NCBI GenBank assembly: GCA_029242715.1
Contig: JAQWTL010000001.1
Coordinates: 1-54,094 of the forward strand
Source: Phycisphaerales bacterium
Lineage (GTDB): Bacteria; Planctomycetota; Phycisphaerae; Phycisphaerales; SM1A02
DNA length: 54,094 nucleotides
Direction of reading: 5' to 3'
Numbering within the stretch: position 1 is the first letter of the stretch; each line of letters opens with the position of its first letter. The translations under genes and the position numbers were made by a program. Below the pieces are notes generated by a model, which made no database searches, had not been told where the DNA came from, and was given only the letters and a program-made list of their open reading frames with translations. This document shows positions 28,773 to 40,674 of this stretch, in pieces.

Positions 28773-30653
28773 ATGGCACAATGCCTCTGCAGACTGATGC
28801 TCGTCAAACCACCGACATTCAGAGCACTTGATCTACCTGAAGGCAAGAAGCCTCCGGGCTTGGTGCGACGGATCATCTACAGGGTGAGCGCCAAATGTCT
28901 GTGGCTCCATCGCATTGATCGCGTCATGATCAACATGACCCAGCGGTGCCGGACCTGCCCTCATCAATTTGCACTCGATGACCTCCGGATTGACTGGACA
29001 GTTACCGCATCCGATCTTGAACACATCCCCCCAACAGGTCCGGTTCTTGTCGTAAGCAACCATCCCTTCGGCGGGGCAGATGGACTCGTACTCTGCGCTG
29101 CAATCAACAAGGTTCGGCAGGACTTCAGCCTGCTGACCAATTACCTGCTTCTATCACTCCCGATACTGCGGAATGACTACCTGCCGCTGAATCCTTTCGA
29201 CAAGGATGCTTCCACAAACCTCCGTTCACTGAAGACCGCCATCGAGAGACTCAAGGATGGCCAACTCGTGATGACCTTCCCTGCGGGTGAAGTCTCACAC
29301 AGGACCTGGCGGCGGTGGTCGGTCACGGATTCTCCGTGGTCACAATCCGTTGCAACAATGGCAGTCCGTGGAAAAGCAACTGTTATTCCCATCTACTTCC
29401 ACGGGCATAACTCAATCCTATTCCAACTGGCTGGCATGATTCACCCCATGTTCCGCACGATGCTGCTTGCAAGACAACTCGTCAACAAGAATGGCCGGTG
29501 CATACGCGCCTCGATAGGCCGGCCAATCACCCCGGAGAAAATCAAAGAGTTTGATGATCGAGAAACCCTCACCGAATACCTCCGCGGTCGTGTCTACATG
29601 CTCTCCGGCCGCAAAAGGGAAACAGAAACATCCGTTTCCGCTCCAGCCATGGCGCCCAAGACAAATTCTCTCCTTCCGCAAATCACGGTTGCAGATCGGT
29701 GTGCGGATGAAGTGATGGCGCTCTCGGGACGACAACGACTGGTCGACAGTGGAAATCTGTCGGTCTACTTGGCCAAAAGTCGCCAGATCCCGAACATCCT
29801 CCATGAGATTGGTCGGCTCAGAGAGATGACCTTCCGCACGGTAGGAGAAGGAACTGGCAATGATGTGGATCTCGACCAGTTTGATCGCGCCTACCGCCAT
29901 CTCTTTGTCTGGAACCATCAGGAACAGGAAATCGTTGGCGCCTACCGGCTGGGATTGACAGATGAAATCATGCGAACGCGAGGCGTGAAGGGTCTGTATA
30001 CCTGGACGCTCTTCAACTTCGACAAGCGGCTGATGGACTCTCTCGGGCCTGCTGTTGAACTCGGCCGATCGTTCATCCGGCCCGAGTACCAACGCAGCTT
30101 CAAACCCCTGATGCTTCTATGGAGAGGCATTTCCCGATTCATCTGCCTCAAGCCGAAGTATCGCTATTTCTTCGGCACAGTCAGTATCAGTAATGATTAC
30201 TCCGCAGCTTCAAAAAGGCTGATGACTGATTTCGTATCTTCAACCTCCATGGTCAAGGATTTTGAAAGCCTGATCTCTCCAAGAAATCCCCACCAGCCCA
30301 AGCGTGTTCGCCATTGGGATCTTGAGAGTGTCCGCCTTGCATGCACTGATCTCAAGGACGTCGAAGAACTGGTGCGAGACATCGAAAATGGAAAACAAGG
30401 CGTACCGATTCTGCTCAAGCAGTATCTCAAGCTGAACGCCAAGTTGATTTCCGTATTCAATGTCGACAAGGAGTTTTCAGACGTCATCGACGGCTTGATG
30501 CTCGTGGACTTTCTTGATGTCGATCGGCGGATACTCAACTGGTACTTCGGAAAGGAAGAGGCCAGCGATTTCCTCCGGTACTACGGACGAGACGATCAGG
30601 ATCTCTCACCGCTTGACTCACCTGACAGCAGCGATATCTCTGCTTCTGCCTAG
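28773..30653 (+). CDS. OlsF-like bifunctional acyltransferase (PlsC-like + GNAT-like)
   Basis: A 626-residue fusion. The N-terminal part is a lysophospholipid-acyltransferase domain: 'VVSNHPFGGADGLVL' (residues 93-107) is the NHPxGGxDG acyl-acceptor motif and 'LVMTFPAGEVSH' the second motif. The C-terminal part (about 310-500) is an OlsB-like acyl-ACP N-acyltransferase of the GNAT fold: 'LREMTFRTVGEGTGND', 'IVGAYRLGL' and 'PAVELGRSFIRPEYQR'. The same domain order is known in OlsF, which makes ornithine lipids by N- and O-acylation. So the product may be a phosphorus-free amino-acid lipid of the membrane. A start at 28797 is also possible. Convergent with the next gene. Confidence 0.75.
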   Translation: MAQCLCRLMLVKPPTFRALDLPEGKKPPGLVRRIIYRVSAKCLWLHRIDRVMINMTQRCRTCPHQFALDDLRIDWTVTASDLEHIPPTGPVLVVSNHPFGGADGLVLCAAINKVRQDFSLLTNYLLLSLPILRNDYLPLNPFDKDASTNLRSLKTAIERLKDGQLVMTFPAGEVSHRTWRRWSVTDSPWSQSVATMAVRGKATVIPIYFHGHNSILFQLAGMIHPMFRTMLLARQLVNKNGRCIRASIGRPITPEKIKEFDDRETLTEYLRGRVYMLSGRKRETETSVSAPAMAPKTNSLLPQITVADRCADEVMALSGRQRLVDSGNLSVYLAKSRQIPNILHEIGRLREMTFRTVGEGTGNDVDLDQFDRAYRHLFVWNHQEQEIVGAYRLGLTDEIMRTRGVKGLYTWTLFNFDKRLMDSLGPAVELGRSFIRPEYQRSFKPLMLLWRGISRFICLKPKYRYFFGTVSISNDYSAASKRLMTDFVSSTSMVKDFESLISPRNPHQPKRVRHWDLESVRLACTDLKDVEELVRDIENGKQGVPILLKQYLKLNAKLISVFNVDKEFSDVIDGLMLVDFLDVDRRILNWYFGKEEASDFLRYYGRDDQDLSPLDSPDSSDISASA

Positions 30654-31109: not shown

Positions 31110-31226
31110 GTCCTGCTCCACCACCGGGAGAGGTGGCTCCCGGGTCAATGTCAGCCATCGACTACTTGGAACACAATCCGAACTCCGGTGCGATATGCTC
31201 AGGTTTCTGCCGACCAGGAAAGATGC

Positions 31227-31604
31227 ATGAGCCTCACAAACCGCATAGTCCTCATCACCTGCTTTGCCACTGCTCTCCTGATGCAGTGTTGCAACGCACC
31301 AGAGCCCGCTTCCTTCGCCCAACTCCACAAGGGCATGAGCAAGGAAGACGTGGTCAAATTGCTGGGGAAACCGTCTTCACAGTGGAAACCGCTTCCTGCC
31401 AGGACCGGGGAACCTGATCCGGAATGGTCTCTTCGATGGCATTACGGAGACAGCCTGAGCACGACCGCCTCAGCAGCCATGGGACCGGATATCGCTCCAG
31501 ATGGTGTCTGGGTAGTCGTATTCAATGAACGGGACACCGTCATGGATTTCCGGCCCCCGATCCTGCCAGATGATTCCTTTCCACTCCAGAAACCGCCCAA
31601 GTAA
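31227..31604 (+). CDS. BamE/SmpA-like small lipoprotein
   Basis: A 125-residue protein starting at the ATG at 31227 behind AGGAAAG. The hydrophobic signal 'NRIVLITCFATALLMQCC' is likely a lipoprotein signal, although the lipobox (LMQC) is atypical. 'FAQLHKGMSKEDVVKLLGKP' is the typical helix pair and 'GxPs' turn of SmpA/BamE-like folds ('I..GMTkeqV..LLG.P'), followed by strands ('WSLRWHYGD', 'VWVVVFNERD'). BamE belongs to the outer-membrane assembly machinery, but this fold is also used by many unrelated lipoproteins. Confidence 0.6.
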   Translation: MSLTNRIVLITCFATALLMQCCNAPEPASFAQLHKGMSKEDVVKLLGKPSSQWKPLPARTGEPDPEWSLRWHYGDSLSTTASAAMGPDIAPDGVWVVVFNERDTVMDFRPPILPDDSFPLQKPPK

Positions 31605-32970: not shown

Positions 32971-33288
32971 CTACTTCTCGGCAGGAAACGTAGCTTCGAT
33001 TTCCCCTGTGGACCGTTCGTATTGCACACCACATGACTCAGGAAAACGCTCAAGCCCTTCAGCCTGAAGGCTGGGGGCATGGTGTTCCTCGTAGTTCTTG
33101 TACGTGGCTCTGTCAGGAAAGACATAGCGGATCTCAAATGCCGTCACCGCATCATCCAGACGCACGATTTCCGCAGAGGTCGCTCCCGCCGCGAGAACAT
33201 CGTCGATGTGTCCATCCTTCAGCCAATGCAGCCATTCTGTAGCAGTGGCATCAGTCGCGAATTCGGCAGATACGGTGTAGCGGTACAT
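32971..33288 (-). CDS. DUF4286 family protein
   Basis: A 105-residue protein. 'MYRYTVSAEFATDATATEWL', 'WLKDGHIDDVLAAGA' and 'FEIRYVFPDRATYKNYEEHH' followed by 'APSLQAEGLERFP' match DUF4286, a ferredoxin-like alpha/beta fold resembling antibiotic-biosynthesis-type monooxygenases. No function is known. The ATG at 33288 follows GGAG. A much longer in-frame ORF upstream lies antisense-like over the next gene and is not credible. Convergent with folE2, 9 bases apart. Confidence 0.8.
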   Translation of the reverse strand: MYRYTVSAEFATDATATEWLHWLKDGHIDDVLAAGATSAEIVRLDDAVTAFEIRYVFPDRATYKNYEEHHAPSLQAEGLERFPESCGVQYERSTGEIEATFPAEK

Positions 33289-33313: not shown

Positions 33314-34165
33314 CTACCAGCGTCTGCCGCCGCCCCAGCCCCAGCCGCTGTAACCATTCCAGTTTCCGTTTCGGTACCTCTGGGCGTACTTGAAACGTTC
33401 GGTGTACTGCTCCTGGTTGAACTTGTACTGCTCCCAGGCAAACTTGATTCGCTCGTTGCGCTCATCAGCCAGCTGTTGCTTCCTGTCGACGAACATTTCC
33501 TTCGACTGGGCAACCCTGTTGGCCTCATCATCAACTGCCTGCCTGGATTTTTCGTCGAACTTGGCCTCTCGCTCGGCCTGGATGTCCTGATAGCGATCCC
33601 ATCCCCAATCAATGAAATTCTGGAATTGACCCTTTTCCACAAGGAATTCGGACATGTCCTGGACCTGGGCCATCCTGTCGTTCAAGTTGTCCCAGCTTTT
33701 CTTGACAACACTCTCATAGGCCGTCACACGACGTTGATCAGGTGATTCCTCGACTTCCTCAATCTCACCCTGATGCTGGACAGCAATATCAAGTGCTTCA
33801 TTGAAGTTGAGCTTGAAATCAAGATCCATGGCGTTGATCACGCCATCCTTGTTTCGATCACCGAAGTGCTTCTTGATGTCGGGATTATTGAATTCCCTCC
33901 AGAGATCATGATCTTTGAGATAGGTCTCCATGTACTCAATGATCCTGTTGACCTTCTGCTGATGACTGCCAATGGCAGCATTCATGTCACGAAGGGCGTC
34001 CATTTTCATCTCAAGAGTCGGTAATGCCTCGTACTTGGCACGAGCTTCCTGAGCCTGTTGGTTCATATTCTCCTTCCAGTCTGGATCCAGCCCCTTGTTC
34101 TGGGCCAGGGAGACGGAGCTGATGCCGATCAGGAGAATGCTTGTTGCAAAGATTGAAAGTTTCAT
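33314..34165 (-). CDS. Secreted coiled-coil protein with EF-hand-like motif, paralog A
   Basis: A 283-residue exported protein, signal peptide 'MKLSIFATSILLIGISSVSLA'. It is mostly charged helix with one calcium-loop-like motif, 'GDRNKDGVINAMDLDFKL' (DxNxDGxI, dockerin/EF-hand type). A central block, 'ESPDQRRVTAYESVVKKSW', is followed by a long Glu/Lys/Gln coil. It ends in a striking tail: 'YKFNQEQYTERFKYAQRY', then 'RNGNWNGYSGWGWGGGRRW'. The next gene upstream encodes a protein with the same plan. No known family. Likely periplasmic or surface-located. Confidence 0.75.
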   Translation of the reverse strand: MKLSIFATSILLIGISSVSLAQNKGLDPDWKENMNQQAQEARAKYEALPTLEMKMDALRDMNAAIGSHQQKVNRIIEYMETYLKDHDLWREFNNPDIKKHFGDRNKDGVINAMDLDFKLNFNEALDIAVQHQGEIEEVEESPDQRRVTAYESVVKKSWDNLNDRMAQVQDMSEFLVEKGQFQNFIDWGWDRYQDIQAEREAKFDEKSRQAVDDEANRVAQSKEMFVDRKQQLADERNERIKFAWEQYKFNQEQYTERFKYAQRYRNGNWNGYSGWGWGGGRRW

Positions 34166-34237
34166 TGTTCTGACTCGTGAGTTCGATGCATTACAGATGT
34201 GTTATTCAAACGGTGCCGTCGTGCCCTCGAACAGGGA

Positions 34238-35038
34238 CTACCAGCCGCCGTAGCCGTAGCCACCGCCGTAGCCGTTCCAATTTCCGTTCTTGTACTTCTG
34301 GGAGTACTTGTATCGCTTGGTGTACTCCTCCATATTGAACTTGTAGTGATCCCAAGAGGTCTGCAGGAACTTCTGGTGTTGCGCCTTCATTTCCGCCTTC
34401 TTCTTTTGGGCCTGCATCTTGGCCTTGCTGACCCGGGCCTCTTCGTCATCGACGGCGGCTTTGGACTTGGCATCCTCAGCCTTTGCAGCTGATGCCTTTG
34501 CCGCCGCATCCTGATCTGTAGCCCAACTCTGGAAATCGTCAAACTTGCCCTTCTTGTGAAGGTAGTCGGACATGGAGTTGACCTCTGCCATCTTCTCGTG
34601 AAGATGATTCCAGGATGACTTGACGACGTCCCGATAGGCATCCGCTCGACGCTGATCAGGTGTCTCATCGCTTGCTTCGCGGGCCATGTTCACTTCATGC
34701 TGCTCCGCAAGACCAAGGGCCTTGTCGAAGGGCAACTTGAATGGAACATCGCTGGAGTCAACAGTGCCATCCTGATTGGTGTCACCGTGCGTGCCAGACT
34801 CGTAGTCTGCCAGCATCCCGTTTGTCTTGAGATAATTCTGCATCATCTCAATACGAGCGTTGGTCTTACTCAATGAATCTGCAGTGGCATTGTTCATGTC
34901 CTGCAAAGCATGCATCTCACGCTGAGCGTCGCTCGGCGACCCGTCTTCAGGGGACTGGCCGATGGCCTGCCCCTGAGTAGTGAGGCTGAAACTCAGCAAG
35001 ATGGTTGTGCTGCACAGGAGGACGGTTTTCCGGATCAT
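34238..35038 (-). CDS. Secreted coiled-coil protein with EF-hand-like motif, paralog B
   Basis: A 266-residue exported paralog of the following gene. Signal peptide 'MIRKTVLLCSTTILLSFSL'. It keeps the calcium-loop-like 'GDTNQDGTVDSSDVPFKL', the block 'ETPDQRRADAYRDVVKSSW', an Ala/Lys-rich helical coil, and the tail 'YKFNMEEYTKRYKYSQKY' plus 'KNGNWNGYGGGYGYGGW'. The coil differs (Ala/Lys in B, Gln/Arg/Glu in A) while the ends are conserved, which suggests the ends carry the function. The start at 35038 follows AGG and begins the signal peptide; the longer ORF to 35119 does not. The two genes are 73 bases apart and probably an operon. Confidence 0.75.
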   Translation of the reverse strand: MIRKTVLLCSTTILLSFSLTTQGQAIGQSPEDGSPSDAQREMHALQDMNNATADSLSKTNARIEMMQNYLKTNGMLADYESGTHGDTNQDGTVDSSDVPFKLPFDKALGLAEQHEVNMAREASDETPDQRRADAYRDVVKSSWNHLHEKMAEVNSMSDYLHKKGKFDDFQSWATDQDAAAKASAAKAEDAKSKAAVDDEEARVSKAKMQAQKKKAEMKAQHQKFLQTSWDHYKFNMEEYTKRYKYSQKYKNGNWNGYGGGYGYGGW

Positions 35039-37108: not shown

Positions 37109-38725
37109 ATGTACATTCGCCACCCACATGCAGTCCATTCAATAATCCGCCGGACCTCCCTCTGCCTGGCGGTAGCCGCCACACTTGCCGCCTGTGGGCG
37201 AACGGAAGCCCAGACAGATGCAGGGACAACCCAACTTCAGGGCATCGTCTTCGAGGATGAAAACCTCAACGGCGTCCGTGATGGAAAAGAAAAAGGCCTC
37301 GCCAGAGTCCGTGTATCCAATGGAAGAGATGTCGTCATGACGGACGTCCGCGGGCGATGGTTCCTCAATGCCAAGCCCGGCGACACGATCTTCGTGATCA
37401 AACCAAGGCACTGGATACCACCTCTGGACAAGGATGGATTGCCTCAGTTCCATTATGTCCACAACCCCTCCGGCTCACCAGAGGGCCTTGATCATGCCGG
37501 CGTCAAGCCAACACCTGAGGATCCGGGCGTCATCTACTTCGCCTTGTACAGGAACCCGGAAGAAGAACAAGGACATCACAAGGTTGCACTGCTTGGTGAT
37601 CCACAATCCCGCAATCTGACTGAAGTGGATTACCTGGCACGCGATGTCGTTGAGCCCATGGTGGGAACCGATGTGGCCTTTGGAATCGGCCTTGGAGATC
37701 TCGCATTTGATGATCTTGGCGTCTTGCCCGGACACAACGCCGTGATGGGCAGAACCGGGATCCCCTGGTTCAATGTGCATGGCAACCACGACATGAATTT
37801 CGATGTTGACGATGACGCTCTTGCTGACGAAACATGGCAGCGAATCTATGGCCCCGCCACGTATTCCTTCGATTGGGGAACCGCACATTACATCGTGATC
37901 GACAATGTCATCTACGACGGCAATGGCAAGTACCACGGCGGATTCACCGAACAAGACCTGGACTTCATCGAAGCGGACCTTGAGCACATTGGCAAACAGA
38001 CGCTTGTTGTCCTGCTCATGCACATACCGCTTACAGGTGTTGAAAATGCTGATGAACTACTGAGACTGATCGCGGATCGACCGAATACGGTTTCTGTTTC
38101 CGCCCACTATCACATGCAGGAACACCATTTCCTTGACTTCCCCTCGGATACACAGCGAACTGATCCGCACCATCACCTGATCAACGCAACTGCATGTGGA
38201 AGCTGGTGGAAGGGCGCTCCGGATGAATATGGTATTCCTCATGCGATGATGAGTTGTGGTGCACCCAATGGGCACACCCTTCTTGGCGTACGTGATTTTG
38301 ACTACTCATTGCGGTTCGTACCCGCGGGCACTGACCCCCGCCAGCAGATGCATATCTTCCTGCCTGGGTCAATATCGCAATCAATGACAGGTGGAACCGA
38401 GGTCGTCGCCAACATCTGGTCCGGTTCTAAACGCTCCTCTGTAAGGATGCGAATCGATGATGGTCCATGGATCACCATGGCACACGATGTCAGACCGGAT
38501 CCTTACTATGAAATGGCCAAGCTTTCTGAATCACTCGATGGCAAACCTCGAGGCATGCCTCTGCCCAATCCGAGACCATCGCCACATATCTGGGTAGCAT
38601 CCATGCCGTCTGACCTGGCCCCGGGCGGCCACGTGATAGAAGTGGAATCAACAGACATGTTTGGAAACGTGGACACGGGGCATCGGATCTTCCGAGTCAC
38701 GCCTGAGAGTACGACAGGATCGTGA
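37109..38725 (+). CDS. Calcineurin-like phosphoesterase lipoprotein
   Basis: A 538-residue protein. Lipoprotein signal ('LCLAVAATLAACG'), then an SdrD/CNA-B-like strand domain ('GIVFEDENLNGVRDGKEKGL', residues about 44-100, the MetallophosN type), then the metallophosphatase core: 'VALLGDPQSRN', 'GIGLGDLAFDD', 'FNVHGNHDMNF', 'VVLLMHIPL' and 'VSVSAHYHMQEHHF'. These hold the di-metal Asp, Asn and His ligands. A C-terminal beta domain (about 400-530, MetallophosC type) follows. Such proteins hydrolyse phosphate esters outside the cytoplasm; substrate unknown. The stop overlaps the next gene as GTGA. Confidence 0.88.
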   Translation: MYIRHPHAVHSIIRRTSLCLAVAATLAACGRTEAQTDAGTTQLQGIVFEDENLNGVRDGKEKGLARVRVSNGRDVVMTDVRGRWFLNAKPGDTIFVIKPRHWIPPLDKDGLPQFHYVHNPSGSPEGLDHAGVKPTPEDPGVIYFALYRNPEEEQGHHKVALLGDPQSRNLTEVDYLARDVVEPMVGTDVAFGIGLGDLAFDDLGVLPGHNAVMGRTGIPWFNVHGNHDMNFDVDDDALADETWQRIYGPATYSFDWGTAHYIVIDNVIYDGNGKYHGGFTEQDLDFIEADLEHIGKQTLVVLLMHIPLTGVENADELLRLIADRPNTVSVSAHYHMQEHHFLDFPSDTQRTDPHHHLINATACGSWWKGAPDEYGIPHAMMSCGAPNGHTLLGVRDFDYSLRFVPAGTDPRQQMHIFLPGSISQSMTGGTEVVANIWSGSKRSSVRMRIDDGPWITMAHDVRPDPYYEMAKLSESLDGKPRGMPLPNPRPSPHIWVASMPSDLAPGGHVIEVESTDMFGNVDTGHRIFRVTPESTTGS

Positions 38726-40674
38726 AGTTCAACATCGTCATGAAGTTCATTCTCGCCGTGGGCGTGCCCATGGTGGTGATCTACGCCATCATTGGTGTAG
38801 CCCAGTTCCGATCGATGTCTGAACTTGTACAGCGAGAAGGCTCACTTCGTTCGCATGTCTCCGCCGAACTTGTCGCGAATTACCTGGATGGCCGCCTGAT
38901 TACCATTGGCACCGCGACTCGTTCCATAGCCGGTTTCGCAGAACTGGACATGAATGCTGCCATGAAGCAGCAAGTGCCCATTCTGATGAAGCTCCTGGAA
39001 ACCGAGCAGTTGATCAACTCCACTACCGTTGCCTGGGGAGATCCTGAAGGCGCACTGAAGAATGGCCAAAGAGTGCAGCGCCAGCAGAACACGGTGGAAT
39101 CCATCTCACTGACCCGGATGGAGCTTGATGACCTGAAGAAGGATTATGAAAAGTGCCGCAAGCCCAATGGTGGTTGGATCGGTCCACTTCCTGCAACCAA
39201 AGAGCTGGCCCACAGATGCGAATACCTGCACCCCATCCGGAAAAAAGACAAGACCATTGGCCTCCTGTCTGTCGTGATCAACCTCGAAGACCTGCATGAT
39301 CAAGCCGTCAGATCACTTCCGGTCGCTTCCCGCTTCGTGATCATGAATGACCAGTGGATCGTTATGTCCAGCTCCAAGCCAGATGACATTGGCAAATCCG
39401 TATCTGAAATGATCAAGGGACCCGACAAAGAGAGCATGGAGTCATTCCTCACGAGCGTGACGACTGATCGCCGCGCAGGCGCGAGATCGAATTCCAATCG
39501 AGTTCCTACCCAATATGACGGCCAGAAGTACTGGATAGCCTGGTCCGTTGTGGACGAGCCGAACTGGATCCTTGTAGACGCCGTGCCGCAGGCGATCATG
39601 CTTGAGCCCGTCTACTCCCTCCTTCAGCGAGATACGATCATTCGACTGATTGGGGTCGTCATCATCGTCATAGCAATCATCGTCAGCAGTCTCTTGCTGA
39701 CACGGCGTCTCCGCAGACTTCATAACGCCATGGAACAAGCACAAGGAGGCAACCTGGCGGTTCGAGTCAACCCAGGACATGGCAAGGACGAACTCACCCG
39801 GCTTGGCGAGGGATTCAACCGGATGCTTACCGCCTTCTCGAGCAATCTTGATGCGCTGGCGTCAGCAGAAGCTGATCGAATGGCGGTTGATCGAGAACTG
39901 GATATTGCTCGGCATATTCAGGAATCACTTCAACCCCAGTTGCCTCCGACATTCCAGACTGATGCTCATATGGAAATCGCCGCAGTCAACATGGCTGCCC
40001 GGCACGTCGGAGGAGACTTCTATGACTACTGGATCATGGATGATGATCACCTGGCATTCATGCTTGGGGATGTATCAGGCAAAGGCATCCCTGCATCGCT
40101 CTTCATGGCTGTAACAAGAACAACCATCCGAATGATCGCAGGCCGCGAAAAGAATCCCGCCCGAATTCTTGCTCGTACCAATAACCACCTTCTGAAAGAC
40201 AACAGCCAAGGTCTCTTCGTGACCCTGTTTCTCGGTGTTTACAATGTCAAGACGGGGCTGTTGCAATATGCCAACGCCGGTCATCATCCTGCCATCGTGA
40301 AGCCACGTTCCGGATCGATTCGTCTTGAAGGGGAAGCCACGGGGACGATCCTGGGGACTCTTCCAGATGCAGATTGGGAAATGAAGTCGATGCAACTGGA
40401 TCCCGGGGATCACATGATTCTCTACACAGATGGATTGACTGAAGCACACTCTGGTGATGAAAAGATGATCGAGCTCTCCGGCGTGGAAGAACAACTGAAA
40501 AAGGAAACCTGTCAGACCGCGAATGATGTCTGTGAGCACCTTGTACAGTTTGCCGTGCAGGTCCAGGATGGCCATCTCTTTGATGATGTGACCGTCATGG
40601 ACCTTTTCAGACACGCTGACAAGATGCCTTCCGCCGCTTCTGAAGATTCGGATGGGGCTGGAGGGCGGACCTGA
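38722..40674 (+). CDS. RsbU-like PP2C/SpoIIE phosphatase with sensor domain and HAMP
   Basis: A 650-residue receptor-phosphatase. TM1 (about 5-27), an extracytoplasmic Cache-like sensor domain (30-300), TM2 ('LIGVVIIVIAIIVSSLLL'), a HAMP linker, then a PP2C core from about 390: 'DIARHIQESLQPQLPP', 'RHVGGDFYDYWIMDDDHLAF', 'GDVSGKGIPASLFMA', 'YTDGLTEAHS' and 'DDVTVMDL'. The metal-binding Asp residues are present. RsbU-type enzymes dephosphorylate STAS-domain antagonists in partner-switching control of sigma factors. It begins at a GTG overlapping the phosphoesterase stop (GTGA). The STAS remnant near 31.8 kb is the only STAS gene seen here. The ebo cluster starts 15 bases downstream. Confidence 0.9.
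   Translation: MKFNIVMKFILAVGVPMVVIYAIIGVAQFRSMSELVQREGSLRSHVSAELVANYLDGRLITIGTATRSIAGFAELDMNAAMKQQVPILMKLLETEQLINSTTVAWGDPEGALKNGQRVQRQQNTVESISLTRMELDDLKKDYEKCRKPNGGWIGPLPATKELAHRCEYLHPIRKKDKTIGLLSVVINLEDLHDQAVRSLPVASRFVIMNDQWIVMSSSKPDDIGKSVSEMIKGPDKESMESFLTSVTTDRRAGARSNSNRVPTQYDGQKYWIAWSVVDEPNWILVDAVPQAIMLEPVYSLLQRDTIIRLIGVVIIVIAIIVSSLLLTRRLRRLHNAMEQAQGGNLAVRVNPGHGKDELTRLGEGFNRMLTAFSSNLDALASAEADRMAVDRELDIARHIQESLQPQLPPTFQTDAHMEIAAVNMAARHVGGDFYDYWIMDDDHLAFMLGDVSGKGIPASLFMAVTRTTIRMIAGREKNPARILARTNNHLLKDNSQGLFVTLFLGVYNVKTGLLQYANAGHHPAIVKPRSGSIRLEGEATGTILGTLPDADWEMKSMQLDPGDHMILYTDGLTEAHSGDEKMIELSGVEEQLKKETCQTANDVCEHLVQFAVQVQDGHLFDDVTVMDLFRHADKMPSAASEDSDGAGGRT

Follow-up and report, generated by a model that had tools for sequence, protein, structure and literature searches.

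A tandem pair of predicted secreted proteins in a Phycisphaerales genome belongs to a family with a conserved aromatic tail motif

A tandem pair of paralogous genes

The window analysed here, a stretch of 54,094 nucleotides of Phycisphaerales DNA, contains two neighbouring genes on the reverse strand. The first of the tandem, P2 (34238-35038), encodes 266 amino acids, and the second, P1 (33314-34165), encodes 283 and is probably a fast-evolved duplicate; a gap of 72 bases separates the two. A first-pass annotation of this DNA had described them as tandem paralogs, with coordinates that proved exact, and the similarity of the products is far above chance (BLASTP 148 bits, E 8e-48, 92/269 positions identical, 34%). 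Promoter- and terminator-like sites around P1 and P2 were not above shuffled sequence, within one standard deviation.

Both proteins begin with a signal-peptide-like N-terminus, spanning residues 1-24 in P2 (34967..35038, reverse strand, as are all features of the pair; hydropathy maximum at residue 6) and residues 1-21 in P1 (34103..34165; maximum at residue 10). By hydropathy, the N-terminal segment is the most hydrophobic stretch in all 43 aligned members of the family described below, consistent with the signal peptide proposed earlier for both proteins. An EF-hand loop follows at residues 86-97 of P2 (DTNQDGTVDSSD, 34748..34783) and 103-114 of P1 (DRNKDGVINAMD, 33824..33859), each a match to the EF-hand pattern. 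Next comes the block PDQRR..AY..VVK.SW, which opens a predicted helix (129-162) in P2 (residues 127-143, 34610..34660; alignment and AlphaFold) and is placed in P1 by alignment of the two proteins (residues 142-158, 33692..33742). The AlphaFold model of P2 then has a helix of 85 residues (166-250, 34289..34543), by composition a polar, alanine-rich rod, whose putative equivalent in P1 occupies about residues 180-263 (33377..33628), judging from composition and the alignment to P2. Both proteins end in a short tail, rich in Gly, Trp and Tyr and predicted to be disordered in P2 (residues 252-266, 34241..34285), and rich in Gly and Trp in P1, where it is assigned by alignment (residues 264-283, 33317..33376).

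The block and the ending YKFN.E.YT.R.KY.Q.Y.NGNWNGY had been noted at first sight, and both were found again in each protein. So was the contrast between drifted coils and conserved ends: P1 and P2 are identical at 17/63 positions (27%) in the long helix versus 11/14 (79%) in the tail.

A family without a curated model

P1 and P2 are members of a protein family that has no curated model. Every match in the Pfam and NCBIfam scans of the two proteins fell below the cut-off (the curated one for Pfam), and in a Pfam scan of the 43 aligned members no family matched more than four of them at E <= 1 (Dockerin_1). A profile search of PDB sequences returned nothing credible (best E 0.17, SIN3), and our literature search, whose coverage left out most subscription papers, found no description of the family. 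The first-pass annotation had recognised no known family and had named a well-described one as the outcome that would speak against it; none emerged from Pfam, NCBIfam or the PDB sequences.

At least one copy is present in all six genomes of the genus, that of the window included. Only the window genome and G002 have a second copy, the other four congeners being single-copy. P2 is 44-47% identical to the proteins of these four and P1 36-40%, making P2 the copy most like the single ones. Searched with the genus alignment, 71 of the 181 genomes of the family-level group gave a match, and 43 proteins from 41 of these 71 make up the alignment (A3) used throughout. The A3 profile matches 82/181 of the same genomes, with a single match in 76 of the 82; once G056 is dropped, the family is present in 81/181 genomes and 18 of 45 genera, usually as one copy.

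Beyond this group the family thins out. With the best five candidates per genome scored, at least 89 of 400 genomes sampled from the order match at E <= 0.01, 78 of them within the family-level group (G056 and G058 weakly) and 11 outside it. Six of the latter carry full-length members (G609, G610, G625, G699, G706, G725), and the other five matches are weak and N-terminal, four being unrelated when read by eye and the fifth being G736. In the phylum sample, scored in the same way, at least 6 of 392 genomes match, five from the family-level group and one weakly (G451). We rejected G056, G566, G602, G182, G682 and G451 as members, as the N-terminal part alone matches and their frames were judged unrelated by eye; G058 and G736, equally weak, lie outside the set of weak matches whose frames were read.

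A tree of 21 near-clade proteins places the P1 proteins of the window genome and G002 within a clade that also holds their P2 proteins, with a support of 97/99 that covers the clade and not the branching order inside it, where the unusual composition of P1 may produce a long-branch effect. The P1 stem in this tree amounts to 1.3 changes per site. Between the window and G002 orthologs, dN/dS is 0.15 for P1 and 0.11 for P2, ratios that are rough since dS is high (1.1 and 1.6). Decay of one copy, the other outcome that the first-pass annotation had held against its own reading, did not appear: both frames are intact and the low dN/dS of each points to purifying selection. From these sequence comparisons, P1 probably diverged fast and then came under constraint, and neither copy looks decaying.

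Gene surroundings

In all 19 near-clade loci (18 and the window) the family gene lies between genes for a class I/II aminotransferase and a FolE2-type GTP cyclohydrolase. The same flanks occur at none of the 22 distant loci, some of which end at contig edges, although a 34%-identical aminotransferase adjoins in one of the 22, and we therefore rejected both genes as operon partners. The distant loci sort into groups with other shared neighbours (grouped by BLAST only). Neighbours are mostly of housekeeping type and differ between clades, and a Pfam scan of ten window neighbours revealed no evident partner.

Several nearby genes are recorded here in their own right. In the genus, P1 is followed by a DUF4286 gene on its own strand (32971-33288, reverse strand, E 3.6e-12); of the three g40 loci, two have this gene on the strand opposite the family gene and the third gave no match. 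A small protein with a BamE-type domain (31188-31604, forward strand) scores just over the cut-off (E 1.7e-5), with a match in 16 of the 18 other near-clade loci. The window also encodes a SpoIIE phosphatase with a HAMP domain and a weak, sub-cut-off dCache match (38722-40674, forward strand), adjoined by a gene for a calcineurin-like phosphoesterase (37109-38725), and one protein combining acyltransferase and GNAT (Acetyltransf_5) domains (28773-30653, forward strand).

The C-terminal tail

The tail, not the calcium loop, is the hallmark of the family. Its consensus across the family is GSYWNGYxDPYYDVxGY, and the sole invariant column of the 43 sequences is a tail tyrosine. Relative to this residue, 37 of the 43 proteins have Asn at -2, and the counts are 34 for Asp at +2, 35 for Tyr at +4 and 33 for Asp at +6. 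Mean relative entropy peaks in the tail, whose 18 columns average 2.66 bits each, the other regions ranging from 1.29 to 1.93; taken singly, the body residues W143, W229, F104 and W172 each score above the best tail residue, and W143 (P2 numbering, in the PDQRR block) is kept in 42/43 members. A C-terminal aromatic residue of the kind that signals outer-membrane proteins was rejected as a general rule, since Trp or Tyr comes last in 19/21 near-clade members and in none of the 22 distant ones, which have 37-92 more residues after the invariant tyrosine.

Outside the family-level group, G609, a farther member of the order, ends in YPYWNTWGDRYPDVYY and is alone among the six outside members in having a clear motif. 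Four members from another family-level group have Trp/Tyr-rich tails of a different pattern, and G625 ends in NYYNW.

A tail profile built from 36 of the 43 tails (L050-L056 left out) found its own family in every one of 20 genomes (E <= 10), and a single extra, weak match came from G066 (E 0.46). A general C-terminal sorting tag would put the motif on unrelated proteins of one genome, and no other protein of the 20 genomes gave a convincing match. On window-type tails the profile scores weakly, with E 0.0018 and 0.032 for the pair in the window genome and 0.13 for G002; the null result therefore bears mainly on the Asp-bearing motif, and weak tags of the window type could escape it.

The two aspartates at +2 and +6, retained by the other four congeners, are missing from P1 and P2 in the window and in G002 alike, and the motif may thus work differently in this lineage. 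What is left in the window is NGNWNGY plus Gly, Trp and Tyr. The main rival to the explanation that we favour below starts from this composition: P1 and P2 would be structural or adhesive matrix proteins, much as the first-pass annotation had tentatively suggested, whose tails self-associate in a gel- or amyloid-like manner, with the calcium loop tying them to the extracellular matrix and no specific partner involved. It is strongest in the window lineage, where the aromatic and glycine make-up alone remains: Gly, Trp, Tyr and Asn account for 16/16 of the last residues in P2 and 80% of the last 20 in P1, and the lineage kept its aromatics when it lost the motif aspartates. The tails are, however, short and unrepeated, most matching genomes give a single match, and over the 43 proteins the Asn at -2 and the Asp at +2 and +6 are fixed in position beyond what composition would need. 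We regard such self-association as unlikely on the whole, though a serious contender.

The helical body and rod

An AlphaFold model of P2, run on A3, has a mean pLDDT of 83.7. Its predicted helices span residues 37-72, 76-81 and 104-117 before the two already described, and pLDDT falls below 50 at residues 1-4, 6-25 and 252-266. For a distant member with 26% identity to P2, modelled on 36 of the 43 alignment rows, the predicted helices match as far as residue 215, after which confidence is low up to and including the tail motif; the tail is below 50 in both models. The rod is 38-40% charged and contains 12-18% Ile, Leu, Val, Met and Phe. With neither model did Foldseek find a PDB match at E <= 0.001, and in a second-look structure alignment the best Z was 6.7 for P2 and 6.8 for the distant member, on assorted helical proteins. 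A missing fold match is weak evidence and no proof of a new fold.

A body of this kind could itself do the work. In a periplasmic coiled-coil chaperone or tether, by analogy with Skp or Lpp, the helices would act and the tail would be accessory, as the all-helical body with its long helix and the placing of the highest single-column conservation at body Trp and Phe residues would suggest. Against this stands the want of a sequence or fold match in the searches just given, itself weak evidence, and we consider this role distinctly improbable.

The segment running from within the long helix of P2 to its C-terminus (residues 179-266) weakly matches the GrrA family (TIGR04260, E 0.47, 11 bits against a cut-off of 31; P1 is absent among the matches listed), and aromatic-x-Asn/Asp triplets recur in the tails. 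The proteins might on these grounds be precursors that, like GrrA-type peptides, receive radical-SAM cyclophane crosslinks on an enzymatically modified aromatic tail. Yet a search for the GrrM-type maturase, which covers the TIGR04261 class, found it in 0/10 genomes (the 14 controls, a set without a true positive, gave eight matches, none over the cut-off), and no modifying enzyme appeared in the Pfam scan of the ten window neighbours, which makes the precursor reading very improbable.

The calcium loop

The EF-hand criterion is a PROSITE-style pattern of 12 loop residues. It occurs once each in P1 and P2; among 20,000 composition-preserving shuffles, 36 and 39 contain it. Across the alignment it is found in 8/8 proteins of the genus and 0/35 others, which have an unrelated linker at this position. 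The loop is thus a feature of the genus and, by parsimony, a gain.

The loop had at first been called dockerin- or EF-hand-like. The second half of that label holds, with a canonical EF-hand loop in both proteins, and the first does not. Type I dockerins are defined by two calcium-loop segments, and each window protein has one; Dockerin_1 (PF00404) scores 15.1 and 15.8 bits (E 0.016-0.028) against a curated cut-off of 22.9; and cohesin (PF00963) was found in 0/6 genus genomes at E <= 0.001, in a search whose 14 control genomes included a match over the cut-off in Methanosarcina acetivorans. A dockerin-like module docking to cohesin through its calcium loop is therefore largely refuted as an account of P1 and P2, which on their sequences are not dockerins, even though Dockerin_1 is a plausible Pfam name for the loop and the genus is rich in such matches.

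Among up to 150 candidates scored, each of the genus genomes (G000-G005) has 23-64 Dockerin_1 matches at E <= 0.01, not all of them over the cut-off. With no cohesin match beside them, these form an orphan dockerin-like repertoire. Cohesin/dockerin complexes have been proposed for freshwater Planctomycetes (PMC6461901); with no cohesin in the genus genomes, that proposal does not explain P1 and P2.

Proposed role of the family

Based on these observations, we suggest that the P1/P2 family consists of exported helical spacers that present a short aromatic docking motif, with a calcium loop that came later and is structural, and with P1 as a fast-evolved duplicate. We put the probability of this explanation at roughly 0.4. 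The protein would leave the cytoplasm by predicted Sec-type export and, we infer, remain in the periplasm or at the cell surface. A helical bundle would make up its body and lead into a long, polar, stiff helix that serves as a spacer; the rod drifts in sequence and is polar, as expected of a spacer. Through the short and flexible aromatic tail, a docking peptide on this view, the protein would bind a conserved envelope partner, a reading consistent with a tail that is conserved yet predicted to be disordered, as docking motifs are. In the genus, the EF-hand loop between the first two helices, a later addition, would bind calcium and stiffen the head. In the lineage of the window and G002, the gene may have been duplicated in place, P1 diverging fast and coming under constraint later.

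A more ambitious version would see here an envelope tether of the order Phycisphaerales unlike any described: a secreted stiff helical spacer, a disordered YWNGYxDPYYDV tail recognised by a conserved partner, a calcium-dependent head acquired by one genus and a specialised second copy in the window lineage. As a whole we hold this to be unlikely.

To our knowledge, the cell envelope of the Phycisphaerales is poorly understood and their secreted proteome little characterised. The family is compact and mostly single-copy, with a strikingly conserved disordered motif, and a single pull-down with that motif could expose an envelope partner. The origin of a calcium site can also be followed in it as a natural series, from relatives without the loop through a genus with it to a duplicated pair.

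Comparison with known systems

Type I dockerins (PF00404) resemble the window proteins in the canonical 12-residue loop, one per protein, and in the weak Dockerin_1 score, and EF-hand_5 (PF13202) matches 2/43 family members (best E 0.13). Unlike in either, the loop of P1 and P2 is single, sits between two helices of a bundle and is confined to one genus; its scores are below cut-off, and the genus has no cohesin match. The glycine-rich GrrA/OscA1 peptides (TIGR04260) share with P2 a C-terminal stretch rich in aromatic residues, glycine and asparagine, and are set apart from it by the sub-cut-off score and the lack of a GrrM match in the ten genomes.

Spectrin repeats enter the comparison through predicted structure. 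Five PDB chains (nesprin, plectin, dystrophin, alpha-spectrin and alpha-actinin) align with the modelled body of the distant member at Z 5.0-5.8 over 98-104 residues, with an rmsd of 4.7-6.6; unrelated bundles reach equal Z, and values of this size are expected of any helical bundle. The resemblance of the models is one of shape only: it comes with no sequence match, and the body of this family continues into a long helix and its tail.
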